Positions 7,509-14,195 of a DNA stretch of 20,108 nt are shown here, piece by piece. Within the stretch, counting starts at the first letter, position 1. Each line of letters begins with the position of its first letter. The stretch is from positions 1 to 20,108 of the IMG/VR virus record IMGVR_UViG_3300030108_001866; one strand, 5' to 3'. The notes under the pieces were generated by a model, which saw nothing but the letters and a program-made list of their open reading frames with translations, was not told the DNA's origin and searched no databases. Source of the stretch: a virus. A program made the position numbers and the translations under genes.

Positions 7509-7655
7509 ATGGATTTTTTATTCGGTTTCATTTTAGGTTATGTTTGTAAAGAAGTTGTATCTTATCTTAAAAGATTAGCTGATGGACCTATTGAACATGA
7601 CTGGGATAAAGAATGGGATTGGATGTCACCTCTCCAGGAAGATGATTTACCATAA
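7509..7655 (+). CDS. Small membrane-anchored protein, 48 aa
   Basis: The reading frame encodes a hydrophobic N-terminus (MDFLFGFILGYVCKEVV), a short basic stretch (KRLAD) and an acidic, Trp-rich tail (DWDKEWDWM, LQEDDLP). This fits a single N-terminal membrane anchor with a cytoplasmic tail. It starts at a predicted transcription start and has no ribosome binding site. Its TAA directly abuts the ATG of the next gene. It is the first gene of the lysis-type module. The function is unknown. Confidence 0.6.
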   Translation: MDFLFGFILGYVCKEVVSYLKRLADGPIEHDWDKEWDWMSPLQEDDLP

Positions 7656-7823
7656 ATGACAAACAACAATGGCTACACACAGAAGGAATTACTCAATATG
7701 GTCATTGAAAGACTTGATAGATTAGAAGAAAAACTAGATGCAAAACTAGATAAAGCAGAGTTTTACAAAGTATTAACGCTACTCGTAGCACTAGGTGGAG
7801 TTGTTGCAGCGATTGTAATGTAA
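7656..7823 (+). CDS. Coiled-coil plus membrane-span small protein, holin-accessory-like, 55 aa
   Basis: Residues of about 9-36 form an amphipathic coiled coil (NMVIERLDRLEEKLDAKLDKAEF). Residues 38-55 form one hydrophobic helix (YKVLTLLVALGGVVAAIVM). This layout matches small XhlA-like or holin-associated phage proteins, which sit on the inner face of the membrane and act with a holin. The match is in architecture only. The ATG abuts the previous stop, and its TAA overlaps the next ATG (TAATG), so it is translationally coupled to the 617-aa secreted protein. Confidence 0.6.
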   Translation: MTNNNGYTQKELLNMVIERLDRLEEKLDAKLDKAEFYKVLTLLVALGGVVAAIVM

Positions 7824-9676
7824 TGCTGCGAGTTCTATTCGCAGTTTTTTTACTGCTACCATTACCTTTATATGCTAATGAAAACAATACAGATACTTCA
7901 GATACTACTACCACTACTACTACTAGCACTACTACTACTACTATCCCAGGAGAAACAGAAGAGGTAGAAACCTTTGATAATTCTGATACAGAGCCTGAAC
8001 AAACTACTGATATAGAATTACCTGAAGATGAGTTAAATATTTCAGGGAACGAAGTAGAAAATAACATACAGATAGATGATGAGCATAGTAATGGTGATTG
8101 GTCTTGTTGTGGTATGACAGATTTTCACATGAACTTACACTATCAACAACATGGTAATGATAGTAACGACTATACATTTACATTACCTGAAACAACTACA
8201 GTAGATGAAGAAGAACTAGAGATAGAAATATATGAAGTAGGTTTTAGAATTGGTGCTTTGAACAATGATGGCACTGTGGAATACACACATACAGATGAAA
8301 CTACTCAGACAAATGTATTAGAAGGACAAAGTAATAGTAATGTACAGACAATGTATGAAGATATTGTATACAATATTTACGATACTTTAGATACTTTTAT
8401 AGAAAGTTTTACAATAACTATAAATGACTGGTCATTGTTAGATGACATATCTTTTAAATACATTACTCCTACTACTACAACTACAACTTTGCCACCACCT
8501 CCACCACCTGAACCTGCACCTGAAGAAATAATTGTAGATGTAAAAGTAAAAGGTGTAGATAAAACTTATACACAGGCAGATGTTAATGATGGAACTGTAG
8601 ATAGAGATACAGAAAGAGTATCTAATCAAGAAAATTATGGTTGTTATATGACTGATGCACAAATACAGCGTGGTGACTGTGATATAGTTGAAGAAGATGA
8701 AGAACGAGATACCAAAGAAGAGCTTCCTGATGATGATGATATGGTACTTGACCTGGAGTCTGAAGATGAAGTGGAAGAACTTGAACCTATCAAAGAAGAA
8801 GATATTGTTGAAGAGAAGTTTGAGATTGACCTTGAGGAGCTTGAAGAAGAGTTTAAGTTTGAAGAAGAAGATTTTAAATTAGAAGAAATAATTATAGTTA
8901 TTGAGGAAGAGGTTATAGAGGATGAGTTGGACGAAGAGGTACTACGAGATGACGACATCAGAGAGGAAACAATTCAAGAAAAAGATGTCCAAGACGAAGT
9001 TATACAGAAAGTAGAAGTACTTAAAGAAGATATTGAAGAAGAACTTACAGAAGAAGAAGTAGCTTTAGAAGTAGCAGAGATAGAAGAAGTTGTAGAAATT
9101 CCTATCGTAGAAGAAGATGCAACAGAAGAAGAAGTTGCTGAAGCAATAGAAGAATATGTAGAAGAATTAGAAACAGAAGAAGTCATTGAAGTTCTTGAAG
9201 AGGTCAATGATATTGGTGTGCAGGAACTAGAAAATGTATCAGAAGAAGTACAAGAAGTTATCCAAGCAGTAGTAGAGGAAGCTATTGAAGACGTAGAAGA
9301 ACTTACAGAAGAGCAAGTTGCAGTCGTAGCAGAAGTATTACAAGTAGAAGAAGATGATGTTGAAATTATTGCTGAAGCCGTTAAAGAAGATGAAGTTGTA
9401 GCTGAAGCAGTAGAAGAGTATGTAGAAAGAGCAGTAGAGAACGCAGACGTAGAGAATTACACACTTGCTGATGTTGTCACAGAGGTAACTTATGAGGCGT
9501 TCCTCAAAAATCCTGTAGAAGTTTTTGTTGATTTAGATTTTGAGGACATAAGCATAAGCACAATAGGAGATGATATGACACAAGACCAAAAAGAAAAAGC
9601 ACAAGAGGTGGTAGTCCCAGTTATTCTGACTAGAATAGCTAGTATGGCAGCTTTTGTATTTAGGAGAAGTCTATGA
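7823..9676 (+). CDS. Secreted, extremely acidic multidomain protein of unknown function, 617 aa
   Basis: A signal peptide is clear (MLRVLFAVFLLLPLPLYA, cleavage likely after residue 18). Next is a polythreonine linker (27-42), then a beta-rich domain at about 80-213 with a Cys-Cys pair (DWSCCGM) and ending WSLLDDISFKYI. A second linker of Thr and Pro follows (215-233), then a short domain with two Cys (YGCYMTDAQ, RGDCDIVEE). Residues of about 290-540 are dominated by Glu, Asp, Val and Ile, built from loose units such as EEVxEAxEEYVEE. The C-terminus (596-613) is a hydrophobic helix followed by RRSL, a possible membrane anchor. It lies between holin-like genes, with 1-nt and 4-nt overlaps. I do not recognise a family. 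Exported phage proteins of this size in a lysis cluster are unusual. Confidence 0.8.
   Translation: MLRVLFAVFLLLPLPLYANENNTDTSDTTTTTTTSTTTTTIPGETEEVETFDNSDTEPEQTTDIELPEDELNISGNEVENNIQIDDEHSNGDWSCCGMTDFHMNLHYQQHGNDSNDYTFTLPETTTVDEEELEIEIYEVGFRIGALNNDGTVEYTHTDETTQTNVLEGQSNSNVQTMYEDIVYNIYDTLDTFIESFTITINDWSLLDDISFKYITPTTTTTTLPPPPPPEPAPEEIIVDVKVKGVDKTYTQADVNDGTVDRDTERVSNQENYGCYMTDAQIQRGDCDIVEEDEERDTKEELPDDDDMVLDLESEDEVEELEPIKEEDIVEEKFEIDLEELEEEFKFEEEDFKLEEIIIVIEEEVIEDELDEEVLRDDDIREETIQEKDVQDEVIQKVEVLKEDIEEELTEEEVALEVAEIEEVVEIPIVEEDATEEEVAEAIEEYVEELETEEVIEVLEEVNDIGVQELENVSEEVQEVIQAVVEEAIEDVEELTEEQVAVVAEVLQVEEDDVEIIAEAVKEDEVVAEAVEEYVERAVENADVENYTLADVVTEVTYEAFLKNPVEVFVDLDFEDISISTIGDDMTQDQKEKAQEVVVPVILTRIASMAAFVFRRSL
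7904..7942 (+). repeat. ACT trinucleotide tract encoding a polythreonine linker
   Basis: Thirteen codons, eleven of them ACT, with one ACC and one AGC. A shorter ACT/ACA tract near 8467-8486 encodes the second linker. Such tracts can slip in replication and change linker length between relatives without breaking the frame. Confidence 0.8.
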
Positions 9677-9861
9677 TAAAAAAATTATGGAACTGGTTAG
9701 TCCAGGCAATTAAAGAAACACTAAATCTTTCGTGGACTTTAGTGGGTTTAATCATAGCCACTTTGACTTTGACTGGGAGTGCCAGGCAAATCACGGGGCT
9801 TGCCACCGTAATTACATTAGCAATATGGCTATTGACTATAGGATTTAGGAAAGGGGAATAA
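9673..9861 (+). CDS. Two-helix holin-like membrane protein, 62 aa
   Basis: A short amphipathic N-terminus (MIKKLWNWLVQAIKETLN) precedes two hydrophobic segments, about 18-35 (LSWTLVGLIIATLTLTG) and 39-57 (QITGLATVITLAIWLLTIGF), and a charged end (RKGE). Two closely spaced spans in a 62-residue protein within a lysis cluster fit a class II holin or an antiholin. No family motif is certain. The start overlaps the end of the secreted acidic protein as ATGA, showing coupled translation. Confidence 0.65.
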   Translation: MIKKLWNWLVQAIKETLNLSWTLVGLIIATLTLTGSARQITGLATVITLAIWLLTIGFRKGE

Positions 9862-9862
9862 C

Positions 9863-9901
9863 ATGGACTGTTGTGGACAAGGTTGTTGTGGAGGTAAGTA
9901 A
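9863..9901 (+). CDS. Cysteine-rich micro-ORF, 12 aa
   Basis: The frame encodes MDCCGQGCCGGK and ends in TAA directly before the ATG of the DUF5675 gene. AAGGGGA (9851-9857) gives it a good ribosome binding site at proper spacing. Two copies of TTGTTGTGGA or a near match encode the paired CCG units. Its GGA GGT codons also form the ribosome binding site of the next gene. It could be a real metal-binding or lysis-timing micropeptide, or only a leader that couples translation to the next gene. Confidence 0.4.
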   Translation: MDCCGQGCCGGK

Positions 9902-10501
9902 ATGAAATTAGATGTTGTAAGAACACAATTCGGGGAGGATGCAACTAACAGCTTATTATTTATTGATGGGGTATTTGAATGCTATGGACTCGAAGATGAA
10001 GTTAGAGATAAGAAAATTTATTCAGAGACAGCCATACCTTTAGGGGAATATGAAATAAAATTTAGAACTGTTGGAGGATTCCATACACGTACTAAGGCTC
10101 GCTACGATGCTAAGTATGGAGAAGGTTGGCACCTGGGTATGCTTGAACTACAAGATGTGCCTAACTTTGAATTTATTTTGGTGCATTCGGGGAATACAGA
10201 TGAAAGCACGGCAGGTTGTTATCTAGTGGGTAACACACAGCAAGACTTAGATGTAAGCAAAGATGGATTTATTGGCTCTAGTAGAGTAGCTTACGAAAAA
10301 ATGTATCCAAAAGTTAGAGATGCTTTAGTTGCAGGAGAAAAAGTAACAATTAAATATTCTAACGTAAATTTAGAACAGCCGTTATCTAATAAGTCAGGAC
10401 CTGAATACATGAATCCATCTGATGTACATGAAAAATTACAAGAGATAAGTGGAGAGATTCAAGTTTTGACTGCTATGCTTAAAGGTAGAATAATAAATTA
10501 G
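9902..10501 (+). CDS. DUF5675-family protein, 199 aa, probable lysis-associated function
   Basis: Residues 1-150 follow the DUF5675 pattern: a start with LDVVRTQFG and LLFIDGVFECYGLED, then TAIPLGEYEI, then DVPNFEFILVHSGN (about 86-98) and STAGCYLVG (102-110). His95 and Cys106, in an HxGN...GC setting, resemble the catalytic His/Cys layout of L,D-transpeptidase (YkuD) domains. That link is my inference. The last 45 residues (VHEKLQEISGEIQVLTAMLKG) add a helical tail. It lies directly after the Cys-rich micro-ORF and before the r1t holin, so a role in cell-wall attack is plausible. No signal peptide is present, so export would depend on a holin. Confidence 0.65.
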   Translation: MKLDVVRTQFGEDATNSLLFIDGVFECYGLEDEVRDKKIYSETAIPLGEYEIKFRTVGGFHTRTKARYDAKYGEGWHLGMLELQDVPNFEFILVHSGNTDESTAGCYLVGNTQQDLDVSKDGFIGSSRVAYEKMYPKVRDALVAGEKVTIKYSNVNLEQPLSNKSGPEYMNPSDVHEKLQEISGEIQVLTAMLKGRIIN

Positions 10502-10511
10502 GAGATTATAA

Positions 10512-10721
10512 ATGAGTGCAGACCTTAAAGACATGCTAGAACGTACCGGATGGACTTTCATTGAGGCTTTCATCGGAGCGTTAACAGTTGCTCCCTTGGT
10601 CGGTGTTGACGCAGAAGTTATACAACTTGCTGCTCTTGCCGGTGGTGGTGCAGCTTTAGCAGTAGTTAAGACCTATGCTAAAAAACAAATCGGTGGAAAC
10701 TCAGCATCAGTCAGCAAATAA
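10512..10721 (+). CDS. Phage holin, r1t type, 69 aa
   Basis: The sequence begins DLKDMLERTGWTFIEAFIGALTVAPLVG and continues VIQLAALAGGGAALAVVKTYAKKQIGG. The LERxxWTFIxAFxGAL motif, a second small-residue helix and a basic end match the phage r1t holin family, frequent in phages of Gram-positive bacteria and especially actinophages. Holins assemble in the membrane and trigger lysis. A clear AGGAG ribosome binding site sits 7 nt before the ATG, just behind the stop of the DUF5675 gene. Confidence 0.8.
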   Translation: MSADLKDMLERTGWTFIEAFIGALTVAPLVGVDAEVIQLAALAGGGAALAVVKTYAKKQIGGNSASVSK

Positions 10722-13028: not shown

Positions 13029-13218
13029 TCTTTAGTTTGTTTATTGCAAATACAGCATTTTGTTTATTAACATTTTTTCTTCTTAAATATAATCTTGCCT
13101 CTTTAGCAATCTCATGCTTGCCTTTATTTTCTAATTCCTTTGCTAAGGTTTTAATAAAATCAATTTGAGCTTGTGAGATAGGTGTTGAATTATAATACAC
13201 ATGTGTACTTAATTTCAC
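13018..13218 (-). CDS. Stand-alone paralogue of the annealing protein C-terminal domain, 66 aa, GTG start
   Basis: Residues from about ISQAQIDFIKTLAKELENKG to INKLKNAL align along their whole length with the last 55 residues of the upstream Rad52-type protein (MTEAQQNFLEGLINQAIDKG ... INKLKKEL). Both keep AQ-F-L, KG, EA--YL and INKLK. The frame could be extended to a TTG at 13248, but the GTG at 13218 overlaps the upstream TGA as GTGA and has a weak GAAAGAG before it, so I prefer it. The fold is probably a small helical domain. A role as regulator or partner of the annealing protein is an inference from homology and adjacency. Confidence 0.75.
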   Translation of the reverse strand: MKLSTHVYYNSTPISQAQIDFIKTLAKELENKGKHEIAKEARLYLRRKNVNKQNAVFAINKLKNAL

Positions 13219-14195
13219 TTTAACTCTTTCTTTAATTTGTTTATCCAATCACTACAAGATACTTTACCTGTATTGTCTGAGTTCAAGTATTGTTTTGCCT
13301 CGGCTGCAAGTGCGTCAAGTCCTTTGTCAATTGCTTGATTAATCAAACCCTCTAAGAAATTTTGTTGTGCTTCTGTCATAGGGTCTGCTTCTTTACCTGC
13401 TTTCCAATCATCGTTACTAAAGTCCATGTCTTTCTCCTTATCTGTTATTTCTGTAACGTTATCAAGATTCTCAATAATCCTATTTACAACAGGCTCATTG
13501 TTCTTTCTCTCTTCAAACGTTTCCTTGTTCTTATCTATGTACGAATCAACTAAATCTAAAAATGTTTTTATGTCTGCATCTTCCCATTTAGTTATGTCAT
13601 CTTTCTTTGTTTTAATTACTGCCCTGTTGTAACAATCTTTGTAACATCTTGCTGCAAAGTTCTTGTCATCGTTACAACTTACTAGCACCATTTCTTTTAA
13701 CTGATTCACAGTAATCCTTGGTTTAGAATGGGGTGTCCCAGTCTCTTGTGCTACTTTTTTTTTAGGCTCTTCCTGTACAGGTGCAGCACTTACATTGTAT
13801 TCCTCTTCGCTCATGTCTTGTTCCCATAACTCAAGACCAATACCAAGTCTCATGCAACATCTTTTAAGTGCATCTGATTCTGCATCTTTAATAAGTTCGC
13901 CCTCAGATTTTTTACCATTTAAGAATTGATTTATAGCTGTCGGCTCTACGTCTCCTACGTGAGTGACACTTTTACCGTCTACTACCAATGTACATCTTGC
14001 ACCTATGACGTGTCCTGCTTGTCCTTTAATGACTTCGACAGTATCAAAACTGTCAAACAATCCACTCTCCACCAGTCTTCTTGTATAGATATGGTGTGGT
14101 ACGTAGTCTCCAAATCCTGCAGGATTCTTTTTGACTACTGATTTAGCAAATGGTTTTTTTAAATCATCCCATTTCTTTTTCTTGCTCTCGCTCAT
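13215..14195 (-). CDS. Rad52-superfamily single-strand DNA annealing protein, 326 aa
   Basis: Residues of about 30-125 carry the Rad52/Sak-type core: YVPHHIYTRRLVESGLFDSF, a strand-turn region (GARCTLVVDGKSVTHVGDVEP) and the helix DALKRCCMRLGIGLELW (108-124), the most diagnostic stretch. Such proteins coat single strands and anneal them in phage recombination and replication. Residues 126-265 form a long charged linker. Residues 271-326 are a small helical domain that is duplicated as the next gene. The start abuts the upstream stop (TAA ATG). A strong AAGGAG ahead of Met257 could allow separate synthesis of the C-terminal domain. Confidence 0.8.
   Translation of the reverse strand: MSESKKKKWDDLKKPFAKSVVKKNPAGFGDYVPHHIYTRRLVESGLFDSFDTVEVIKGQAGHVIGARCTLVVDGKSVTHVGDVEPTAINQFLNGKKSEGELIKDAESDALKRCCMRLGIGLELWEQDMSEEEYNVSAAPVQEEPKKKVAQETGTPHSKPRITVNQLKEMVLVSCNDDKNFAARCYKDCYNRAVIKTKKDDITKWEDADIKTFLDLVDSYIDKNKETFEERKNNEPVVNRIIENLDNVTEITDKEKDMDFSNDDWKAGKEADPMTEAQQNFLEGLINQAIDKGLDALAAEAKQYLNSDNTGKVSCSDWINKLKKELK
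13427..13439 (-). promoter_or_regulatory. Internal ribosome binding site within the annealing gene
   Basis: On the minus strand AAGGAG (13439-13434) lies 6 nt before the ATG of Met257. Initiation here would give a 70-residue product (13215-13427) holding only the C-terminal domain, the same unit that the next gene encodes alone. The AAG GAG also encodes Lys-Glu, so chance cannot be excluded. Confidence 0.4.

Follow-up and report, generated by a model that had tools for sequence, protein, structure and literature searches.

A family of ultra-acidic, predicted exported proteins with interchangeable heads in the lysis region of marine phages

Introduction

What does a large, apparently secreted and extremely acidic protein do in the middle of a phage lysis region? 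The question is raised by an open reading frame in a 20,108-nt stretch of viral DNA (IMG/VR record IMGVR_UViG_3300030108_001866, positions 1 to 20,108; hereafter the window). An earlier note, made from the sequence alone, had described its product as a 617-aa protein with a signal peptide, two linkers, a beta-rich domain, a long acidic region and a C-terminal hydrophobic helix, and had suggested that it might bridge membrane and envelope, bind cations or alter the cell surface before lysis. Several precedents frame the question. Spanins act at the envelope during lysis and are not needed in monoderm hosts; the T5 protein Llp is a small, exported lipoprotein that masks the receptor of a diderm host and is encoded near receptor-binding genes; and accessory 'moron' genes also typically adjoin lysis genes. 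We therefore ask how the protein is built, how widely it occurs, which genes accompany it, and which of several roles fits these observations best.

Results

The open reading frame occupies positions 7823-9676 on the plus strand, and the 617 aa read from it have an overall pI of 3.3. A signal peptide (residues 1-18, MLRVLFAVFLLLPLPLYA|NE; 7823-7876), recognized by hydropathy and an AXA-like cleavage site and conserved in the family, is followed by a Thr-rich linker (residues about 26-42; 7898-7948), a head domain (residues about 57-215; 7991-8467) and a Thr/Pro linker (residues 216-236; 8468-8530), so that both linkers of the earlier description are present. The rear of the protein begins with a conserved small domain carrying the motif YGCYMTDAQIxRGDC (8531-8692; AlphaFold2 pLDDT about 87) and continues through an acidic stalk that is predicted to be disordered (residues 291-408; 8693-9046; pLDDT <50, mostly <40), an acidic region of predicted helical repeats (residues about 409-560; 9047-9502; pLDDT mostly 72-84) and a C-terminal helix whose hydrophobic stretch ends in RR (9581-9673), a probable membrane anchor from sequence, hydropathy and model. 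The hydropathy of this terminal helix over 19 residues is 1.87, about equal to that of the signal peptide. As the hydrophobic stretch is short and interrupted by an Arg in many family members, a true transmembrane (TM) span is uncertain. An LPXTG sorting motif was sought at the C-terminus and is absent.

Two parts of the earlier description need refinement. Asp and Glu make up 45%, and Val, Ile and Leu 31%, of residues 291-550; of this acidic part, only about 291-408 looks disordered, and about 410-560 is predicted to form helical repeats. The Cys pair that it placed in the beta domain exists as a vicinal pair (residues 95 and 96) in the head, but a second pair (residues 274 and 286) lies past the Pro linker, in the small domain.

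A scan of IMG/VR yielded 279 confirmed full-protein relatives, plus further divergent members, mostly 545-925 aa long and all on contigs from uncultured viruses; with hundreds of relatives, the reading frame is not a chance one. A protein search against 50,697 annotated phage records returned zero matches, and searches against Pfam, NCBIfam, PHROGs and PADLOC gave sub-threshold matches at most; for the PADLOC defence models, none of the four proteins checked had a match. By these sequence comparisons, the acidic protein is a member of a large marine phage family outside known protein families. A cellular origin was considered and rejected, as a scan of genome contigs and searches of three bacterial orders gave only phage-like contigs in metagenome-assembled genomes (MAGs). 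In four relatives (L240, L238, L235 and L075), the frame is open and no ATG, GTG or TTG precedes the signal peptide, making a non-standard start codon possible.

The conserved part of the family alignment is the rear: the YGCYMTDAQIxRGDC domain, the acidic stalk, the helical repeats and the terminal helix ending in RR. Heads were clustered after trimming the N-terminal region, since the Thr linkers join all clusters. Among about 130 complete unique copies, 110 have jelly-roll heads, in several divergent forms, and 20 have Fn3-like heads, one of which (L022) contains a segment matching the Fn3 domains of a receptor phosphatase (E=6e-5). Unrelated heads sit on near-identical C-termini, showing at the sequence level that the head, either a CBM-like jelly roll or an Fn3-like array, is swappable on a conserved rear.

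An AlphaFold2 model of the head, built from the head alignment, is all-beta with a pLDDT of 72, rising to 84-91 over most of residues 61-160. Foldseek matched this model to jelly rolls of the galactose-binding-like kind with modest scores (E-values of 1e-4 to 1e-2, TM-scores of 0.3-0.47), the CBM6 and CBM35 modules among them lying at E-values of 1e-3 to 1e-2, and a search of a viral structure library with the same model gave nothing below E=0.001. The model gives tentative support to a CBM6/35-like jelly roll, and the head would bind a wall or cell-surface polymer, a predicted ligand. The rear model has a pLDDT of 62 and consists of the confident small domain, the disordered stretch, the helical repeats and a single terminal helix; a search of the C-terminal half against PDB folds gave no match below E=0.5.

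Signal peptides and TM segments were called from hydropathy and motifs. The signal-peptide rule, which combines hydropathy with a cleavage site, was passed by 90 of 102 complete copies. Inspection of the 12 failures showed that five had been missed by the charge test, six had it ahead of the start that had been called (in one case in another frame, reflecting a frameshift in a Thr run) and one carried an in-frame stop; every complete copy examined therefore has a signal peptide, save the one broken by the stop. Loss of the signal peptide in relatives, which the earlier note had named as counting against its reading, was accordingly not seen. The cysteines tell a similar story. Among distinct sequences, 89 have both Cys 274 and Cys 286 and 51 have neither, with no sequence having only one, and 176 of 178 complete mature proteins contain an even total of cysteines beyond the signal peptide. 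Such paired gain and loss fits a disulfide-bonded protein outside the cytoplasm. A lipobox was not found, there being no Cys at +1 after LPLYA|NE in the window protein and none in the relatives inspected. The signal peptide, the cysteine pairing and the terminal helix support export via Sec and tethering at the membrane, from which we infer the topology described below.

The acidic-protein gene is tightly embedded among small genes for membrane proteins. Upstream lie a 48-aa open reading frame with an N-terminal hydrophobic segment (7509-7655, plus strand; similar frames occur in, for example, L329 and L330) and a 55-aa XhlA-like frame with a coiled coil and one C-terminal TM segment (7656-7823, plus strand), whose match to the PHROG 'hemolysin' annotation is weak (E=0.03). 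The latter's stop codon shares position 7823 with the first base of the acidic-protein gene (TAATG), and the stop of the acidic-protein gene overlaps by 4 nt (ATGA, 9673-9676) the start of a 62-aa frame encoding a two-TM protein (9673-9861, plus strand). The overlaps behind the translational coupling to holin-like genes first proposed for both sides are real; the label 'holin-like' is loose, the upstream product having a coiled coil and one TM segment and the downstream product two. On the question of whether homologues always sit between holin genes, the first labelled gene downstream is a homologous two-TM gene in 163 of 171 non-redundant copies, in almost every case with an overlap or directly abutting, and an XhlA-like gene is the nearest labelled gene upstream in 69 of 97. 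The two-TM protein, 60-85 aa long across the family, is holin-like, with a putative holin role. Its pairing with the acidic protein persists in L153 despite an altered cassette order, and also in L296, a distant member whose DUF5675 gene is not adjacent. Gene order across the family shows that the two genes are strictly paired.

Downstream of the two-TM gene and a 12-aa micropeptide frame, the window encodes on the plus strand a DUF5675 protein (9902-10501; Pfam E=2.8e-24) and an r1t-like holin (10512-10721; PHROG 443 lysis/holin, E=1.8e-6). In the DUF5675 protein, which has no signal peptide, the His and Cys of the motif H..GNTDExTxGC are invariant; the motif resembles that of YkuD-type L,D-transpeptidases, and the annotations of relatives read peptidoglycan hydrolase or L,D-carboxypeptidase. 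The invariant motif and these annotations make it a probable peptidoglycan-acting lysis enzyme, and its sequence suggests a YkuD-like L,D-transpeptidase or carboxypeptidase; in the literature searched, the function of DUF5675 receives passing mentions at most. An acidic-protein gene is present in 60 of 76 DUF5675 neighbourhoods, and the placement in a lysis region recognized at the outset is conserved, together with the DUF5675 and holin neighbours. Tail-fibre-type genes lie just upstream of the acidic-protein gene.

We then compared the content of the slot that the pair occupies, counting only loci fetched by micropeptide or DUF5675 scans and not via the acidic-protein gene. The acidic-protein and two-TM pair was found in 47 cassettes, a gene for a TM plus coiled-coil protein in nine, neither in seven and both in none, numbers that represent related contigs and not independent events; the seven include L428 and L438, whose contigs end inside the slot. 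The full locus set shows the same mutual exclusion. As the pair is present, replaced or missing across cassettes, it is accessory, filling a slot in the lysis region whose content varies, and the existence of related cassettes without it indicates that it is not universally required and not essential to lysis in this lineage. The alternative occupant is 160-173 aa long (for example, L329:1800-2282 and L446:3743-4264) and has a spanin-like topology in phages whose hosts are apparently monoderm.

Several lines of evidence point to an actinobacterial host. The terminase large subunit (TerL) and portal protein of a 44-kb relative (the L092 record) have their best matches in Streptomyces phages, and the capsid protein of the window matches best those of Mycobacterium and Propionibacterium phages. 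MAG RS345, assigned to Actinomycetota, contains two phage contigs carrying the family, on one of which the copies lie 43.9 kb apart, a spacing that suggests the length of the full genome. One further genome in the small-genome order of this MAG has a family relative, and searches of two other orders found the family only in the seed MAGs. Two MAGs with family matches are labelled non-actinobacterial (gammaproteobacterial and flavobacterial bins), and we take these matches to be mis-binned phage. A search for WhiB, an actinobacterial marker, in 26 long records of related viruses found none, which is host evidence neither way. The sequence matches support an actinobacterial host, which we take to be a marine one, probably from the Actinomarinales, a group in which an outer membrane is considered unlikely (PMC7771536). 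If the terminase, portal and capsid matches reflect a monoderm host, the acidic protein should span the wall. The bridging of membrane and envelope originally suggested fits such a host.

A comparable annotated genome plan is that of Streptomyces phage Immanuel3 (Beephvirinae), which has homologous TerL and portal proteins and a similar order of TerL, portal, giant protein, capsid, tail, TM plus coiled-coil frame, holin and opposite-strand replication genes. It differs in having no such exported protein or two-TM partner annotated, and the acidic-protein family has no match in a collection that includes Immanuel3. A giant protein of about 2,000 aa also follows the portal gene in phages related to that of the window (L485:9766-15855, L488:203-6253); the one tested, from L485, had no Pfam match, and these products are possibly ejected internal virion proteins.

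Discussion

We propose that the acidic protein is a late, Sec-exported, membrane-tethered stalk that acts in an envelope step of lysis, a tentative reading to which we give slightly less than an even chance. Expressed late, the protein would lie with its C-terminal helix at the cytoplasmic membrane, beside the two-TM protein that the overlapping gene encodes; the acidic stalk, part disordered and part helical, would cross the cell wall and present an interchangeable jelly-roll or Fn3 head bound to a wall or cell-surface polymer. Its accessory envelope job would be either to tether or strain wall and membrane, or to sense the state of the envelope and so control the holin-like partner. Contact with the partner and participation in lysis are conjectural, as are the cation binding and the change to the surface before lysis that were raised earlier; the protein may strain or open the envelope, control the partner or coat the cell. 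The broader claim, that phages of monoderm hosts here possess a new two-gene system for envelope disruption or lysis control, in which an exported modular stalk, with a swappable glycan-binding head, a polyanionic stalk region and a membrane helix, and a two-TM partner serve in a wall-only envelope as spanins or sensor antiholins do elsewhere and are interchangeable with the TM plus coiled-coil protein, is in our judgement doubtful.

The spanins, such as lambda Rz/Rz1 and T1 gp11, are phage-encoded, exported, membrane-tethered, envelope-spanning products of lysis cassettes, as is predicted for the acidic protein, and in relatives of the window phage coiled-coil genes take the acidic-protein slot. 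Spanins serve diderm hosts, either with an outer-membrane lipoprotein that has a lipobox or as one protein with both a lipobox and a TM segment, and they have a coiled-coil periplasmic domain and fuse two membranes; the C-terminal region of the acidic protein is modelled as helical repeats. Unlike spanins, the acidic protein lacks a lipobox Cys after the signal peptide, is mostly 545-925 aa long, has binding-type heads and belongs to phages of an apparently monoderm host.

The main rival to a role in lysis is masking at the cell surface, in which the protein would cover receptors, or free polymers of the wall, and so serve superinfection exclusion or protect progeny from debris, with the lysis genes as chance neighbours. 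This alternative, which we consider unlikely, would account for an exported, accessory protein with an interchangeable, binding-type head encoded just downstream of tail genes, and T5 Llp is likewise an exported phage protein encoded near receptor-binding-type genes. If the protein masked receptors, heads and tail fibres would be expected to vary together, and the lack of any excess co-variation weighs somewhat against it: across 27 loci (351 pairs), head similarity correlated with that of the adjacent tail-fibre gene at rho 0.21 and with that of DUF5675 at rho 0.19, in a small and weak test in which the fibre is a putative receptor binder. Near-identical heads also occur with very different fibres (median similarity 0.33), and the strict coupling is to a two-TM gene within the lysis cassette. 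The acidic protein differs from Llp in having no lipobox and, in this small test, no co-variation with the tail fibre.

Alternatively, the acidic protein might be an exported, antiholin-like sensor or regulator of lysis timing that binds its two-TM, holin-like partner and either delays lysis or sets it off, depending on what is sensed by the head. The strict pairing with a small two-TM gene would suit such a role, and there are precedents in T4 RI, an antiholin that bears a signal peptide (PMC8385771), and in the pairs of two-TM and one-TM holin-like proteins that control mycobacteriophage lysis (PMC13056207). Like RI, the acidic protein has a cleavable-type signal peptide, judged from hydropathy and cleavage-site pattern, and is linked to a small holin-like membrane protein. 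An RI-type antiholin binds a holin and inhibits lysis, and the tie of the acidic protein to its partner is at the level of gene pairing. RI, though, is a small protein that is released into the periplasm (PMC8385771), whereas the acidic protein is far larger, and searches of Pfam, NCBIfam and PHROG libraries gave no sequence relation between them; the holin identity of the two-TM protein is, moreover, putative. The LysF1a/LysF1b-type pairs also come from an actinobacteriophage cassette and combine a two-TM with a second membrane-associated protein, but LysF1b has one N-terminal TM segment in an N-out-C-in orientation and no exported modular ectodomain (PMC13056207). We regard a dedicated timing sensor as quite unlikely.

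Still less probable is an adhesin that attaches infected cells to one another, to particles or to fresh hosts: a long charged stalk with exchangeable heads of the CBM or Fn3 type would suit an adhesin, but this role does not predict the lysis-linked position or the pairing with a membrane gene. Virion proteins of tailed phages assemble in the cytoplasm, and a tail appendage, suggested by the tail-fibre-type genes just upstream, is very improbable given a signal peptide and paired cysteines conserved in all branches of the family; nor did any evidence of homologues in virions turn up, the other finding that the earlier note had set against its reading.

If the envelope-acting stalk is the right reading, lysis cassettes of abundant ocean actinophages encode large surface proteins with exchangeable heads that annotation libraries have missed, which raises the question of what phages do to open, or to control, a streamlined monoderm envelope.

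Annotation also misses a conserved, Cys-rich micropeptide of the same cassette. In the window, the 12-aa MDCCGQGCCGGK is encoded at 9863-9901 (plus strand), between the two-TM and DUF5675 genes, and the family consensus is M[D/E]CCGxGCC[G/N]G[K/G]. When the regions after the two-TM gene were chosen without reference to the motif, 53 of 165 contained a mini-frame with at least three Cys. Across 29 distinct 36-nt versions, differences within the Cys and Gly codons fall almost exclusively at the third base. Elsewhere in the family, the micropeptide is encoded upstream of the acidic-protein gene or lies across its start in another reading frame, and copies occur near L277 5998, L392 10022 and L307 6443; in the latter two, which are unrelated phages, it directly precedes a major-tail-protein-like gene. 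Change almost confined to the third base, together with this varied placement, points to selection on a translated peptide, which could act as a peptide in its own right or as a Cys-codon leader. Finally, an open reading frame on the minus strand of the window (13215-14195) has weak Rad52/Mgm101-like matches and is possibly a single-strand annealing protein.
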